In this document: positions 1,705 through 37,852 of the stretch, piece by piece
Position numbering within the stretch: position 1 is the stretch's first letter
Layout: each line of letters begins with the position of its first letter
The notes under the pieces: generated by a model
Told to the model about the DNA's origin: nothing
Database searches by the model: none
Seen by the model: only the letters and a program-made list of their open reading frames with translations
From: Bacteroidales bacterium
GTDB lineage: Bacteria > Bacteroidota > Bacteroidia > Bacteroidales > VadinHA17
Assembly: GCA_021163295.1 (NCBI GenBank)
Contig: JAGGXD010000005.1
Span: 1 to 37,853 of the forward strand
Direction of reading: 5' to 3'
Length of the DNA: 37,853 nt
Translations under genes and position numbers: made by a program

Positions 1705-1866
1705 TTCATATCTTTTGTTTTCTCCTCACAATTATTACCAATCCTTCGAAGTTCACTGATGATTACGCCCCTTTGGTATATCCTTTTTCCCACCGGTCTG
1801 GCCGGTTATTGTAAACTAACAAGAGTTAACGATTCTAAAACCCCGAGCTGCGCTTGAGGCTTTTGA

Positions 1867-1894
1867 CTGCCATCTGCCGACTGCCGACTGCCGA
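1867..1894. repeat. Heptamer array, CTGCCAT-(CTGCCGA)x3
   Basis: Four consecutive 7-base units: CTGCCAT, CTGCCGA, CTGCCGA, CTGCCGA. They are GC-rich against an AT-rich background and lie about 40 bases upstream of the larB -7 element. This is one of about a dozen short-period arrays confined to gaps in this window. Confidence 0.85.
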
Positions 1895-1932
1895 CTAATT
1901 ATTTATTAAACCTGAAAATTAAGGTTTTTTAG

Positions 1933-2710: not shown

Positions 2711-2716
2711 CTTAAG

Positions 2717-2835
2717 AGAGTTGAGTGAATATTAGTTTGAAGTTTGAAGAATGTTTGAAGTTTGAAGAATGTTTGAAGTTCGAAGTTAACCTGTAACATC
2801 AAACCTGAAACATGAAACTTTTTAACCAGTAACCA
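2717..2835 (+). repeat. Composite intercistronic repeat, copy 1 (three word families)
   Basis: The gap between larB and the WbqC gene is built almost wholly of short repeated words. Reading with the genes they are: AGAGTTGAGTG (2717-2727) just after the stop; four to five TTTGAAG units (2736-2785) interrupted by AATG; four heptamers CCTGTAA, CATCAAA, CCTGAAA, CATGAAA (2790-2817); then TTAACCA and GTAACCA (2822-2835), which touch the ATG. The first word, a 16-base TTTGAAG stretch and the last word recur in the same order in the arcC-argF gap. Confidence 0.85.
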
Positions 2836-5087: not shown

Positions 5088-6359
5088 TTATCTTCTGCCT
5101 CCTGATCCGCCGGAACTTCTACTTGAACCACCAGAGCTTCTTGAACCAGATGATCCTGAACTCCTTGAACCTGAAGAGCCGGAACTGCGGCTGTAAGTTG
5201 ATCTGCTTCCACTTGATCGAGAATATGATCCACTCGATCCGGAACTTCTACTTACCGGTCTTGAGTATGTCGACCTGCTTGTACTACTTGGCCTGGAATA
5301 AACCGATCTTGAAGTGGTGGTTGATCTGTTAGAGCTACTACCCTGATACGTTCTTGCACTACGGTTATAAACCGGTTTTGAACTTGTCCTGGTATTATTA
5401 TATCTGGGTGTATATGTAGACGATCTCCTGTTATTATTGACAGTTGAATTCTTTTGAGGAACCCGTGTTGTAGTTGTAACCCTGTTTGTTGAAGTTCCCC
5501 TTCTATTTGCAGGATTAATATTACTAACTGTTGTAGTGTTCCTGTTTGTTGTGTTTCTATTTGTAGTTACAGTATTTGATGTTTTTCCCGAAGAATTCGC
5601 ATTGGTCCTTCTATTTGCTTCCTGATAACTTGCATAGTTACTTTTTGACCGGTTAGTAGTACTCATAACATTTCTGTTTGTCGTACCTGACCTGCGGTGT
5701 CCTACATAAACGTCATCCGACCTGCTTGAATTTCTATAATAAACGCCGGAATTATAATAATTAGGATATCCCCCATAAGAAAAATAAGAATAAGGGGACC
5801 GGTATCTTGACCTGTATGATCCATAATAGTATGAACCCGGGTAGAAAGAATCGTAATAATAAGGATCATAACCATAACCATAATAAGGACTTCCGTAATA
5901 ATACCTGTTACTGAACATGTTATATCCTGAATAAAACCCGAAAGAGAAAGGGCTATAAAACGAACTATAATAAGGACTAAAATAACTAAATGAGGGTGAA
6001 TACCCGTAAAATCTCCTTATCCTTGATGAATAGGGTATTCCTCCATAGTAATCATAGCCACCATTTTCATAATAGTTATTCACTATCATTGAACTATCAC
6101 CTGCTTCATAATAAGCATCAGCCTGAAGAGTATCTGTCTGATAAACATTTAGTCCTTTTTCTGTTGTCCCGGCATCTGCAAATTCCATCGCACTGTAAGC
6201 ATTATCCAAAGGAGCTGCAGATCTTTTAACAACTGTTTGAACCGGCTCATCCCCGGGTGAATAATAAATATCATCATATCCGGTTGACAACATCATGCTT
6301 CCTGAACAAGCTCCTAAAAAGCCCGATGCTAAAATTATTATGTATAACCTGGTTTTCAT
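5088..6359 (-). CDS. Tyrosine-rich lipoprotein of unknown function, paralogue 1
   Basis: No known function. The 423 residues have clear zones. A lipoprotein signal ends at FLGAC (Cys18). An ordinary spacer runs to about residue 92. A Tyr/Ser/Gly-rich zone (about 95-208) follows, with YYYG and SYFSPYYSS-like repeats opening around the motif SSRIRRF (111-117). Next comes an Asn/Thr/Arg-rich zone (about 209-360) and finally a low-complexity Arg-Ser-Ser-Gly tail ending GGRR. The charge is strongly basic and no catalytic pattern is visible. The adjacent gene at 6564-7661 is a diverged paralogue sharing the NNYY...RIRRF block. A strong Shine-Dalgarno AGGAGG (6367-6372 on the minus strand) sits 7 bases from the ATG, unusual for this phylum. 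A structural envelope or matrix role is possible but is only inference. Confidence 0.8.
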   Translation of the reverse strand: MKTRLYIIILASGFLGACSGSMMLSTGYDDIYYSPGDEPVQTVVKRSAAPLDNAYSAMEFADAGTTEKGLNVYQTDTLQADAYYEAGDSSMIVNNYYENGGYDYYGGIPYSSRIRRFYGYSPSFSYFSPYYSSFYSPFSFGFYSGYNMFSNRYYYGSPYYGYGYDPYYYDSFYPGSYYYGSYRSRYRSPYSYFSYGGYPNYYNSGVYYRNSSRSDDVYVGHRRSGTTNRNVMSTTNRSKSNYASYQEANRRTNANSSGKTSNTVTTNRNTTNRNTTTVSNINPANRRGTSTNRVTTTTRVPQKNSTVNNNRRSSTYTPRYNNTRTSSKPVYNRSARTYQGSSSNRSTTTSRSVYSRPSSTSRSTYSRPVSRSSGSSGSYSRSSGSRSTYSRSSGSSGSRSSGSSGSRSSGGSSRSSGGSGGRR

Positions 6360-6563: not shown

Positions 6564-7661
6564 TTATCGTCTCCTTCCTGAGGATTTTTCTTGGTCTGAC
6601 TTACTGTTTCCTGACGACCGTGTAACTCTTTTTGAAGAGTTTTTACTTCTCGGATTACCAGACCTCACATTGCTCTTCCTTGTCTTTGTAGACGTACGAT
6701 AACTACTTGAACGATTATTATTTGCAGGTTTTGATATCCTGGTCCTGTTACTATTTTTCTGATGTGCTTTATAAACAGGACGACTGGATCTGTTCGTTGA
6801 CGGCACATAAGTACTCCTTCGTGTTTCAGTCCTGTTTTGCGCACGGTTAATATCACGATTATTATTTGGAATCGTAGTATTTCTCCTTGTATTAGTTACT
6901 ACCCGTCTCTCTTTTTCTGCACTTCTGTTATAATTTCCGGTACCGGCAGTATTAGTTGGTGAACTGCGCCTACTGCTATTAATAACATTACTGTTTCTAC
7001 TGTTATCCCGGTTTACTGAGGTTCTCGAAGGTACAACCTGATTTTTCCTGTAATTGTTACCCGCCCTGTAATTACTTGCATACTTGAAAGAATGTGAGTA
7101 ATAACCATCTCTATAATAATCCCGGTAATTATTATAATAATTGTACCTGTTAGCATAATAAGGTCTGTGATAACGAATTCTATTTCCATACCATGTATTA
7201 TAATAATATCTGTTCACAATCCGGGGTCTGTACACAATATTATATACAGGATACCATGGATATGGATTGTAATAATATGATCGATAGTATGACCTGAAAG
7301 GAAACCCAAATGAAATAGATAATCCTACAGGATTCCACATCGATCCAAGATATATGCTCATACCCCAATATGAAGGCTCGTATGTGTACCAGTAACAATC
7401 AGTATAGTATGAATTATAATAAGAATAAGAGACATAAGGTTTGTGAAACCTTCTTATTCTTGAAGCATAGTAATAATCATATATATAATCTCCATCTCCA
7501 TAGTAATAATTATTTTCAACAATTACATCCTGACCTGCAGGATTAGTTCTGTCAAACCGGAAATGGTCTCCCTGGTTTATACCGGAGGAAGCTGTAAATG
7601 CCTGTGTGTTTAACAATCCCAGACTTGCAGCTATAATGAATATTTTTGCTTTTGTTTTCAT
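6564..7661 (-). CDS. Tyrosine-rich secreted protein of unknown function, paralogue 2
   Basis: No known function. The 365 residues start with a Sec signal peptide (about 1-24, no lipobox), so unlike paralogue 1 it should be soluble in the periplasm or exported. The shared block VENNYYYG...YYYASRIRRF (47-72) is followed by a Tyr-rich zone to about residue 195, rich in Tyr/Arg/Asn/Trp (NRYYYNTWYGNRIRYHRPYY). Then comes a long basic Asn/Ser/Arg/Thr tail ending SSGRRR. Layout and motif make it a paralogue of the neighbour. It has a strong Shine-Dalgarno (GGGAGG, 7668-7673) 6 bases from the ATG and its own terminator. It is transcribed divergently from proS. Confidence 0.8.
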   Translation of the reverse strand: MKTKAKIFIIAASLGLLNTQAFTASSGINQGDHFRFDRTNPAGQDVIVENNYYYGDGDYIYDYYYASRIRRFHKPYVSYSYYNSYYTDCYWYTYEPSYWGMSIYLGSMWNPVGLSISFGFPFRSYYRSYYYNPYPWYPVYNIVYRPRIVNRYYYNTWYGNRIRYHRPYYANRYNYYNNYRDYYRDGYYSHSFKYASNYRAGNNYRKNQVVPSRTSVNRDNSRNSNVINSSRRSSPTNTAGTGNYNRSAEKERRVVTNTRRNTTIPNNNRDINRAQNRTETRRSTYVPSTNRSSRPVYKAHQKNSNRTRISKPANNNRSSSYRTSTKTRKSNVRSGNPRSKNSSKRVTRSSGNSKSDQEKSSGRRR

Positions 7662-9244: not shown

Positions 9245-9251
9245 TCAGAAT

Positions 9252-9301
9252 ACTGGTTACTGGGTGCTGGGTGCTGGTCAACTTTTGACTTTCGACTTTA
9301 T
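9252..9301. repeat. Two adjoining heptamer arrays after proS
   Basis: The first array is ACTGGTT, ACTGGGT, GCTGGGT, GCTGGTC (9252-9279). The second is ACTTTTG, ACTTTCG, ACTTTAT (9281-9301). Both have period 7 with drifting copies. The second array contains the TTTG that serves as the -33 element of the next promoter. The first shares the word GGTTACTGG with arrays at 2822-2835 (reverse complement) and 33891-33911. Confidence 0.85.
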
Positions 9302-22332: not shown

Positions 22333-22342
22333 AGTCTAAATA

Positions 22343-22386
22343 AGTTAAAAGTTATAAAGTTAAAAGTTATAAAGTTAAAAGTAATA
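22343..22386. repeat. AGTTAAA/AGTTATA array, period 7+8
   Basis: AGTTAAA, AGTTATA, A, AGTTAAA, AGTTATA, A, AGTTAAA, AGTAATA. Two heptamer variants alternate to give an exact 15-base period. It lies just upstream of the DUF5606 ATG, between two genes on the minus strand. Confidence 0.88.
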
Positions 22387-23205: not shown

Positions 23206-23247
23206 TGGAATATTGGAATGGTGGAATGTTGGGGAATCCATTATTCC
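23206..23247. repeat. TGGAAT word array
   Basis: TGGAATA, TTGGAATGG, TGGAATGT, TGGGGAATCC and then an inverted ATTCCA: the same core GGAAT about every 8-9 bases. It lies between the coaE stop and the TerB-J gene start, both on the minus strand. Confidence 0.75.
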
Positions 23248-29613: not shown

Positions 29614-29694
29614 AGGGAACAGAGGGTATAGAGGGGATAAAGGGAGTAGAGGAATTTAATTTTTAATTTGTAATTTTTAATTTTTAATTTAAAG
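29614..29694. repeat. Period-9 array joined to a period-7 array after feoB
   Basis: Period 9: AGGGAACAG, AGGGTATAG, AGGGGATAA, AGGGAGTAG, AGGAATTTA (29614-29658). Period 7: TTTTTAA, TTTGTAA, TTTTTAA, TTTTTAA, TTTAAAG (29660-29694). Together they fill the whole gap between the feoB stop and the next ATG. Confidence 0.88.
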
Positions 29695-31656: not shown

Positions 31657-32667
31657 CTAACCAGACCATTGACCTAATGTTGCCACCATTATTGCTTTAA
31701 TAGTATGCAACCTGTTTTCAGCTTCATCAAAAACAATAGAAGCATCCGATTCAAAAACATCTTCAGTTACTTCCATTGCACTAAGCCCAAACTTCTGAAA
31801 TATCTCCTCTCCAACTTTTGTTTCCCTGTTATGAAAAGCAGGCAAGCAATGCAGTACCTTAACCTTAGGATTAGCGGTTAATTCTAAAATATTCTTATTA
31901 ATCTGGTACGGCTTAAGCAATTGTATCCTTTCCTTCCAGACTGAATCGGGTTCGCCCATTGAGACCCAAACATCCGTATATAGGAAATCGGCTCCCTTTA
32001 CAGCAGTTTCAATATTATCTGTAATGGTTATGCTGCCACCGGTATCTTGTGCAATTTTCCGGCAGGTTTTCACGAGATCACCATCCGGCTGACAATTTTC
32101 AGGAGCAGCAGCCCGGAAATCCATACCCATTTTTGCAGCACCAACCATCAATGAATTGCCTACATTGTTTCTTGCATCACCCAGGTAACAAAAGCTGATA
32201 TTGTTTAAATTTTTATCAGTATGCTCCAACATTGTCATAAAGTCGGCAAGTATCTGGGTGGGATGGAATTCATTGGTAAGTCCGTTCCAAACCGGCACAC
32301 CGGAATATTTACCCAGGTCTTCAACCAAATCCTGACCGAATCCACGATATTCAATACCATCATACATCCGTCCAAGGACACGCGCAGTGTCTTTCATCGA
32401 TTCTTTGTAACCTATCTGTGAACCTGACGAACCAAGATAAGTTACACGAGCACCCTGATCTAATGCAGCCACTTCAAATGCACATCTTGTACGAGTTGAT
32501 GATTTTTCAAATATCAAAGCAATATTCTTACCTTTCAGATGTGGTTGTTCGGTTCCTGCATATTTTGCCCGTTTTAACTCAAATGAGAGATCAAGCAATT
32601 GTGAAATTTCTGCTTGTGTAAAATCTAATAATGTAAGGAAATTTCTGTTTCTTAAATTGTAAGCCAT
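31657..32667 (-). CDS. argF: Ornithine carbamoyltransferase (probably catabolic)
   Basis: Interconverts ornithine plus carbamoyl phosphate and citrulline. The 336 residues carry the carbamoyl-phosphate loop SSTRTR (56-61), HPTQ (135-138), the ornithine-binding DVWVSMGE (232-239) and HCLP (273-276). The SMG loop marks a true ornithine enzyme rather than the acetyl- or succinylornithine enzyme of some Bacteroidota, or putrescine carbamoyltransferase. The long form resembles E. coli ArgF and catabolic ArcB. It follows carbamate kinase on the same strand, which points to the catabolic direction: citrulline phosphorolysis to ornithine and carbamoyl phosphate (ArcB role). No arginine deiminase gene is in the window. 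The gap to carbamate kinase is filled by a composite repeat. Confidence 0.94.
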
Positions 32668-32712
32668 ATTGTATGTTCTGTTTATTAGTTAATAATTGTA
32701 TTAACATATTAC

Positions 32713-32810
32713 GGGTACTGGGTACTTAACCTTAAACATCTTCAAACTTCAAACCTCAAACTCTTCATTCTTCCTACTCAACGACTCAACTTACTCAACC
32801 ACTCAACTCT
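32713..32810 (-). repeat. Composite intercistronic repeat, copy 2
   Basis: On the plus strand: GGGTACT twice (32713-32726); CTTCAAA, CTTCAAA, CCTCAAA (32740-32760); TACTCAAC, GACTCAAC, TTACTCAAC, CACTCAAC (32775-32807) running into TCT. Read in the direction of transcription, this repeats the word order of copy 1. The 11-base AGAGTTGAGTG lies just past the arcC stop, then the TTTGAAG units (16 identical bases with copy 1), then the ACCCAGTACCC word before argF. Confidence 0.85.
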
Positions 32811-32813
32811 TCT

Positions 32814-33770
32814 TTATTTATCATATTCCATCGTAATTTTTGTGCCGTATGATCTGTCTTCGAGCCTGGTTGCTTCAGTAATAACGCTTTTCAAGCCACC
32901 TTTTTCAATAAACTGAAGGCAGGCCATGATCTTAGGAGCCATACTTCCCTTTGAAAACATACCTTCATTTAAATAGCGAACAGTGTCAGCATGATCCAGA
33001 AATTCTTTAATTTCCTGGTTCGGTTTCTTAAAGTTTATATATACAAACGGAACATCGGTAAGAATATAAAACTCATCAGCTTTGATCCTGGCTGCCAGTA
33101 ATGAAGAAGCCAGGTCCTTATCTATTACAGCTTCAACCGGTCTTACATTTCCTTTCTCATCAATATAAACAGGCACTCCTCCCCCGCCAGAAGCAATTAT
33201 AATATTTCCTTCCCTGGCAAGCTTTTCAATTACATCTTCATTCATTATTCCAACCGGACGGGGCGATGGAACTACCCTTCTCCATCCACCTTCAGTTTTT
33301 ACTTCTTCCTTGAATATCCAACCCTTTTTCATCGTAAGGTCATCGGCTTCCTGTTTGGAATATATCTTCCCAACTCTTTTCTGCGGATCCTGAAATGCAG
33401 TATCATTCTTATCTATCATTACCTGGGTAACAATTGTAACAACATTCTTTTTAATACCATGTTTCCTCAGAACATTCCTGAATATCCTTTCAATCATGTA
33501 TCCAATCCCCCCCTGTGAATCAGCGACACAAATATCAAGAGGCATTTGTGCTATTCCATACATCTGTTCACCTGCATCATTTCTCATAAGTATATTACCA
33601 ACCTGAGGACCGTTACCATGAGATAATACAAGATCATATCCCTCTTTTAACAGATATACCAGATTCTCCAAAGTATCAGTAGTATTTTGTTCCTGTTCTA
33701 TAATAGTACCATCCTGATCTCCCCTGAGAAGCGCATTTCCACCTAAAGCAACAACAGCCAATTTATTCAT
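32814..33770 (-). CDS. arcC: Carbamate kinase
   Basis: Makes ATP from carbamoyl phosphate and ADP, giving carbamate (NH3 and CO2), the energy step of the arginine deiminase route. The 318 residues show VVALGGNALLRGDQ, the LSHGNGPQVGNIL block, VSDSQG-like sequence (CVADSQGGIGYMIE), WRRVVPSPRPVGI, NIIIASGGGGVPVY, and the C-terminal MFSKGSMAPKIMACLQFIEK; all typical. An upstream in-frame TTG (33774-33776) exists, but ATG at 33770 is preferred. It is transcribed ahead of argF. A TAATTTTG -7 element lies 35 bases upstream. The gene is divergent from the lipoprotein at 33978. Confidence 0.95.
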   Translation of the reverse strand: MNKLAVVALGGNALLRGDQDGTIIEQEQNTTDTLENLVYLLKEGYDLVLSHGNGPQVGNILMRNDAGEQMYGIAQMPLDICVADSQGGIGYMIERIFRNVLRKHGIKKNVVTIVTQVMIDKNDTAFQDPQKRVGKIYSKQEADDLTMKKGWIFKEEVKTEGGWRRVVPSPRPVGIMNEDVIEKLAREGNIIIASGGGGVPVYIDEKGNVRPVEAVIDKDLASSLLAARIKADEFYILTDVPFVYINFKKPNQEIKEFLDHADTVRYLNEGMFSKGSMAPKIMACLQFIEKGGLKSVITEATRLEDRSYGTKITMEYDK

Positions 33771-37811: not shown

Positions 37812-37817
37812 GAGAAG

Positions 37818-37852
37818 AAGTAAGTAGTAAGAAGTAAATAGTAAATAGAAAA
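37818..37852. repeat. Heptamer array WAGTAAR after lolA
   Basis: AAGTAAG, TAGTAAG, AAGTAAA, TAGTAAA, TAGAAAA: five period-7 units reaching the window end, so the array may continue. Confidence 0.88.

Follow-up and report, generated by a model that had tools for sequence, protein, structure and literature searches.

Oriented arrays of 7- and 8-base repeats at gene borders in a Bacteroidales genome

Two gaps with shared repeat words

The stretch of DNA analysed here, hereafter the window, is a single contig (C155) of 37,853 nucleotides from a Bacteroidales genome of 3.49 Mb in 272 contigs. Two of its intergenic gaps carry composite repeats. The first lies on the forward strand between larB (NF033503) and a gene for a WbqC-like protein, for which no NCBIfam name was obtained, and the second lies on the reverse strand between arcC (TIGR00746) and the ornithine carbamoyltransferase gene argF downstream of it. 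Table 1 lists the repeats of both gaps together with those found elsewhere in the window. Read directly, the two gaps hold AGAGTTGAGTG, GTTTGAAGTTTGAAGA and CCAGTA in the same order and orientation, as an earlier sequence-only reading had described. Both are flanked by co-directional genes, and the sense of the words matches that of the flanking genes. Beyond these two gaps, the window has no further copy of AGAGTTGAGTG.

That reading had also held that the gaps are not recent duplicates of one fixed sequence. The comparison bears this out, since unit number, spacing and sequence all differ and unrelated copies average 75% identity, and a recent duplication was accordingly rejected. Judging from the congeners G004 and G005, which carry full GTTGAGT arrays in the larB-wbqC gap, the single AGAGTTGAGTG unit in the window is probably the remnant of such an array. 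Scanning for tandem repeats and listing every gap revealed at least six further arrays of 7-8-base units in the window. The larB-wbqC and arcC-argF pair is thus not special; both gaps belong to a large class of arrays.

Table 1. Repeat features of the window, by position and strand, with the type of evidence
Feature	Position	Strand	Evidence
larB-wbqC gap, composite repeats	2711..2835	+	direct reading; gene annotation
AGAGTTGAGTG, single unit	2717..2727	+	comparison with congener gaps
TTTGAAG array, period 18 (two 7-base units plus AAT)	2735..2785	+	direct reading, tandem-repeat scan
GTTTGAAGTTTGAAGA, exact copy	2735..2750	+	
GTTTGAAGTTTGAAGA, exact copy	2753..2768	+	
AACCTGAAACATCA array, period 14 (two 7-base units), C>G on mRNA strand	2788..2818	+	
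ACCAGTAACCA, directly ahead of wbqC start	2825..2835	+	direct reading, orthologous gaps
CCAGTA, exact copy	2826..2831	+	
arcC-argF gap, composite repeats	32668..32813	-	direct reading; orthologous gaps
AGAGTTGAGTG, exact copy	32800..32810	-	
GTTGAGT array, four units, spacing 8-9 bases, 6 nt past arcC stop	32776..32807	-	
GGAAGA tail of GTTGAGT element	32769..32774	-	
TTTGARG array	32739..32762	-	direct reading, tandem-repeat scan
GTTTGAAGTTTGAAGA, exact copy	32739..32754	-	
TACCCAGTACCC, CCAGTA word, start side, about 45 nt before argF start	32712..32723	-	
CCAGTA, exact copy	32716..32721	-	
GACTGCC array	1865..1896	+	tandem-repeat scan
TACTGGG array directly past stop (CCAGTA word on opposite strand)	9251..9277	+	
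AAGTTAA array; congener G005 carries a GTTGAGT-like array in the orthologous gap	22342..22386	-	
TGGAATGT array	23206..23232	-	tandem-repeat scan
AGGGAATAG and TTTAATT arrays past stop	29614..29690	+	
AAGTAGT array past stop	37815..37848	+	

Arrays across the genome and known repeat systems

A census of 1.2 of the 3.49 Mb places these gaps in context. Genes were called with a simple ORF script, with some starts and small genes wrong. In the intergenic DNA of this sample, exact tandem pairs rise clearly above a Markov control only at periods of 7 (126 versus 13) and 8 bases (60 versus 8). A tolerant search of the 111 kb of intergenic DNA yields 171 arrays in 142 of 747 gaps, as against 1 in a shuffled intergenic copy and 24 in 1.07 Mb (1072 kb) of coding DNA, and the expected near-absence from genes is thereby upheld. 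Because a unit of 7 or 8 bases disrupts the reading frame, the arrays may survive almost exclusively outside genes. Some 16 word families are found again and again at unrelated places in the sample. Array density, which is inflated because part of the sample was chosen for GTTGAGT repeats, falls from 2.56 per kb in convergent gaps to 1.72 in co-directional and 0.92 in divergent ones; orientation, distance and strand results should be unaffected by that choice.

Many bacterial genomes contain more heptamer repeats than expected, and no function has been agreed for them. The STRR heptamers of heterocystous cyanobacteria were reportedly described by Mazel et al. in 1990. PMC4692102 mentions three heptanucleotides of Calothrix, and PMC4679880 cites work on heptanucleotide LSSRs (Mrazek et al. 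2007). The present arrays resemble STRR and LSSR repeats as lineage-specific tandem heptamers, and the features that characterize those repeats, an excess of tandem units of 7 (5-11) bases lying mostly outside genes, are found here. Two differences are that 8-base units form a second common class in this genome and that a strand rule at gene borders does not figure in the available parts of the STRR and LSSR descriptions.

Two systems are closer still. Rehm et al. (2015) described arrays of GGGAATC or GGGGA(C/T)T heptamers in Xanthomonas and Nostoc, with a preference for four units and a location 0-50 bp from a stop on the coding strand or from a start on the non-coding strand, and took the G-quadruplexes formed by these words as the likely reason (PMC4692102). 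Those arrays are under-represented between divergent genes and spread over gene functions (PMC4692102). The arrays studied here are likewise intergenic, scarcest between divergent genes and spread over gene functions, with a four-unit mode in GTTGAGT and a strand rule, both quantified below. They differ in that many words are involved, units may have 7 or 8 bases and several families combine within one gap. The G3 quadruplex motif (at least four G3 tracts) is also absent from all 171 arrays and all 49 intergenic GTTGAGT elements. The second system, TAACTGA, was reported by MacGregor (2015) as direct repeats in Beggiatoaceae, cyanobacteria and some Bacteroidota (PMC4679880). Its arrays of 2-6 copies lie in gaps, are strongly oriented to genes and in some cases overlap the upstream stop; in some Bacteroidota they are interspersed with other heptamers, and a close relative lacks them in the corresponding gap (PMC4679880). 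Both systems consist of short oriented heptamer arrays in gaps, although TAACTGA lies mostly directly before starts in Beggiatoaceae, and TAACTGATAACTGA, which is TAACTGA in tandem, has no copy in the 1.2 Mb sample.

The earlier statement that no named family of this sort is known in Bacteroidota is therefore only partly right, since repeats of the same kind exist as TAACTGA, in part within Bacteroidota, and as GGGAATC in Xanthomonas and Nostoc. Within the open-licence literature searched, the arrays are of the same kind as known intergenic heptamer repeats but use non-quadruplex words. They are classed as a variant of that kind because words lacking the quadruplex motif follow the rules of GGGAATC-type arrays.

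Word order and strand at gene borders

The sequence-only reading proposed a fixed order of three words. Among co-directional gaps, GTTGAGT precedes CCAGTA in 12 of the 12 that hold both and TTTGARG precedes CCAGTA in six of six, while TTTGAAG or TTTGARG and GTTGAGT occur in either order (3:3). The ends of the gaps are thus ordered and the middle is not: GTTGAGT keeps to the stop end and CCAGTA to the start end, as had been claimed. A strict three-word grammar fails, since TTTGAAG has no fixed order against GTTGAGT, and the reported order is present in only two of the four three-word gaps. The strand of CCAGTA also flips with its slot, at 19 to 2 before starts and 10 to 11 after stops.

When all words are pooled, a strand rule emerges that is independent of the word. 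Arrays past a stop are G-rich on the mRNA strand and arrays before a start are C-rich. For arrays at or within 15 nt after a stop, 55 have G>C and 15 have C>G; within 25 nt before a start, the counts are 6 and 17 (p=9e-6). A separate set of congeners replicates the rule, with 23:2 past stops and 1:7 before starts (p=6e-5). It persists when GTTGAGT words are removed. It also persists for arrays located 1-15 nt downstream of an intact native stop, and selection on reading frames alone is therefore insufficient to explain it. Convergent gaps obey the rule, as do co-directional gaps of either strand; between divergent genes only a weak, non-significant tendency is seen (p=0.26). In gaps with multiple arrays, the order C-rich then G-rich occurs in 0 of 39, where about 3 would be expected from the margins.

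Several structural bases for the arrays were considered and rejected. Array-bearing gaps fold no better as RNA than array-free gaps (mean z -0.51 versus -0.61), and the two window gaps have z values of -2.05 and +1.33; no significant folding is found that would make RNA structure the basis of the arrays. Inverted partners accompany 12 of 171 arrays, compared with 9 in the control gaps. Leaving out the gaps with such partners does not abolish the strand rule. Hairpins formed by inverted arrays are accordingly rejected; for lack of an inverted-repeat excess, REP/BIME or other palindromic interspersed elements are rejected too. The region 32500-33000 contains no intrinsic terminator (GC stem plus T run), and replacement of terminators by the arrays is not supported, given that hairpin terminators are about as frequent in co-directional gaps with arrays (3%) as in those without (4%). 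Hairpin terminators occur in just 3-8% of the co-directional and convergent gaps in the 1.2 Mb sample of this genome (G000).

One way to explain the strand rule would be insulation by Rho. Inbound RNA, whether antisense at the 3' end or readthrough at the 5' end, would be C-rich and G-poor, allowing Rho to load and end it, while outbound C-poor RNA would be spared. The base composition of the rule, G-rich on the outward strand, suits this explanation, as do the presence of a rho gene and the very small number of hairpin terminators in the genome. The spacing of TC at 8-9, however, does not match the YC-N9-13 of rut sites, and some post-stop arrays are C-rich in sense, as in G014. In addition, Nostoc shows the same strand preference (PMC4692102), whereas cyanobacteria are stated to be without Rho (PMC13289151). 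Taken together, insulation by Rho appears quite improbable. The rho gene itself, at G000:C241:74280-74501 (L269), has an open frame of 589 aa, which is long for Rho and compatible with the disordered region of Bacteroides Rho described in PMC10284900.

The outward-G rule could instead apply generally to repeats at gene borders across several phyla, as a law that requires neither a particular word nor a G-quadruplex and reflects a directional process at gene ends. The four-unit mode and strand preference appear in Bacteroidota words without a G3 motif, which argues for a non-quadruplex cause of the preference; a law of such breadth is nevertheless distinctly unlikely. If true, it would point to repeat growth past the stop linked to transcription, or to the addition of repeats to the 3' end, with a fixed strand.

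The GTTGAGT element and the probable origin of the arrays

GTTGAGT is usually found as four GKTRAGT units, spaced 8-9 bases, followed by GGAAGA. The 1.2 Mb sample contains 49 such arrays in intergenic DNA and 1 in coding DNA (0 expected). Among the intergenic arrays, 41 of 49 have the same orientation as the preceding gene, against 28.5 expected, and 34 of 49 lie in sense within 12 nt of its stop, where 6.2 are expected and none of 500 random placements reaches the observed number. Co-directional gaps hold 30 sense and 5 antisense arrays, in keeping with the earlier claim of a non-random orientation to transcription. In 18 of 41 cases, a simple text test finds that a repeat unit makes up the preceding stop or looks like it; the other arrays have an intact native stop, in most cases only a few bases upstream. 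Arrays of four units are the most frequent here (28 of 52) and in the genus set (22 of 42), whereas those of other words mostly become rarer from two or three units onward. A GGAAGA lies no more than 16 nt downstream in 27 of 43 arrays, versus 4 of 43 on the upstream side.

The array strand has a C content of 0.2%. Avoidance of C was rejected as proof of selection, because few substitutions could be counted and, given their origin in repeats, these are not independent. A role as backup stops in all three frames was also set aside: GTTGAGT does provide such stops, but relatives carry words without stops in the same slot (GATTTGC, AAAAGGA).

A three-unit pattern matches 99 times in the genome versus 3 times for a reversed control, and 39-97 times in each of five congeners; among 148 other genomes of the order, just 3 contain it. 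The element is thus present throughout the genus and nearly absent from the rest of the order, and four GKTRAGT units plus GGAAGA past stops constitute a compact genus-specific marker. With a stricter pattern, 22 stretches were found over 84,980 species, nearly all of them in Bacteroidota MAGs. GTTGAGT-type matches number 49 and 22 in two genomes from other families of the order, G075 and G167, and often form long arrays there. Most members of the order lack such matches, and in several others it is the reversed control word that is found. A GTTGAGT array also occurs on a contig labelled Candidatus Aminicenantes (L208:3302-3328), by mis-binning or transfer.

Comparison of orthologous gaps shows how readily words change. 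In G002, G003 and G005, the arcC-argF gap has four GTTGAGT units past the stop and a CCAG word ahead of the start, and the words between them differ; in G001 the stop slot is filled by other words. Between larB and wbqC, G002 has only 23 nt and no repeats, and other orthologous gaps display the same gain, loss and exchange of words among congeners. Words are therefore interchangeable between species at one site, and the modular composition first proposed for the two gaps is supported, with ends kept and the middle changing. Other genera of the family use different 7-8-base words, and six of eight arrays in the sampled gaps lie within 7 nt of a stop; in more distant genera, 40 gaps held no arrays. 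A 20-base palindrome, AGACAAGGCATGCCTTGTCT, lies within or adjoins TTTGAAG arrays at L043 (about 5990-6010), L066 (about 7610-7640) and L133, where it is upstream of the wbqC gene of that locus. Its 16-base core is found at three sites in the 1.2 Mb sample and in the larB-wbqC gap of G004.

An RNA-level role of the arrays is possible. GTTGAGT and its tail could represent a dedicated 3' RNA element, an unstructured, C-free, protein-binding repeat that alters mRNA decay, processing or coupling to the next gene. Its defined anatomy, with four-unit mode and GGAAGA tail, fits such a role, as do its sense orientation and proximity to stops. In the arcC-argF gap, it occupies the same place in congeners at 91-98% identity; relative to G005, the most distant congener, the element is 91% similar versus 65% at four-fold sites, which hints at direct constraint on this copy. 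Other orthologous pairs, in contrast, come close to the 75% seen between unrelated copies. A general purifying selection on the element was consequently rejected, as only the arcC-argF copy clearly exceeds four-fold sites. Given also that presence varies in the same gap among congeners, that other words occupy the same slot and that no binding protein is known, a dedicated element is judged unlikely.

The same 45-base anatomy at dozens of sites, with clean presence or absence in orthologous gaps, may alternatively suggest a small interspersed mobile element that inserts right past stop codons in a fixed orientation. Such elements would not readily account for the varying unit number and spacing or for the obedience of other words to the same rule, and neither inverted ends nor, by eye, a target duplication is seen. 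A mobile origin is very improbable.

The explanation that we consider moderately probable is that the arrays are born of slippage and filtered by gene borders, with selection for strand that would act on RNA as it exits or enters genes. Tandem duplication or polymerase slippage would probably create and lengthen the arrays, and copying would spread them. The arrays draw on a lineage-specific vocabulary and accumulate side by side in one gap, which makes gaps resemble sentences of shared words. Where an array persists, and on which strand, is set by the gene borders and not by the word, with the G-rich strand pointing outward from the gene; the genus-specific, C-free GTTGAGT element right past the stop is the strongest example. 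Slippage alone leaves unexplained the identical words at dozens of unrelated sites, the four-unit mode of GTTGAGT and its GGAAGA tail.

Some arrays grow to considerable length. One gap (L046:3139-3426) holds about a dozen ATTCCAGT units, and at L078 (9559-9718) a contig end falls within a long AGTCGGC/AGTCCAC array; long arrays probably break the assembly.
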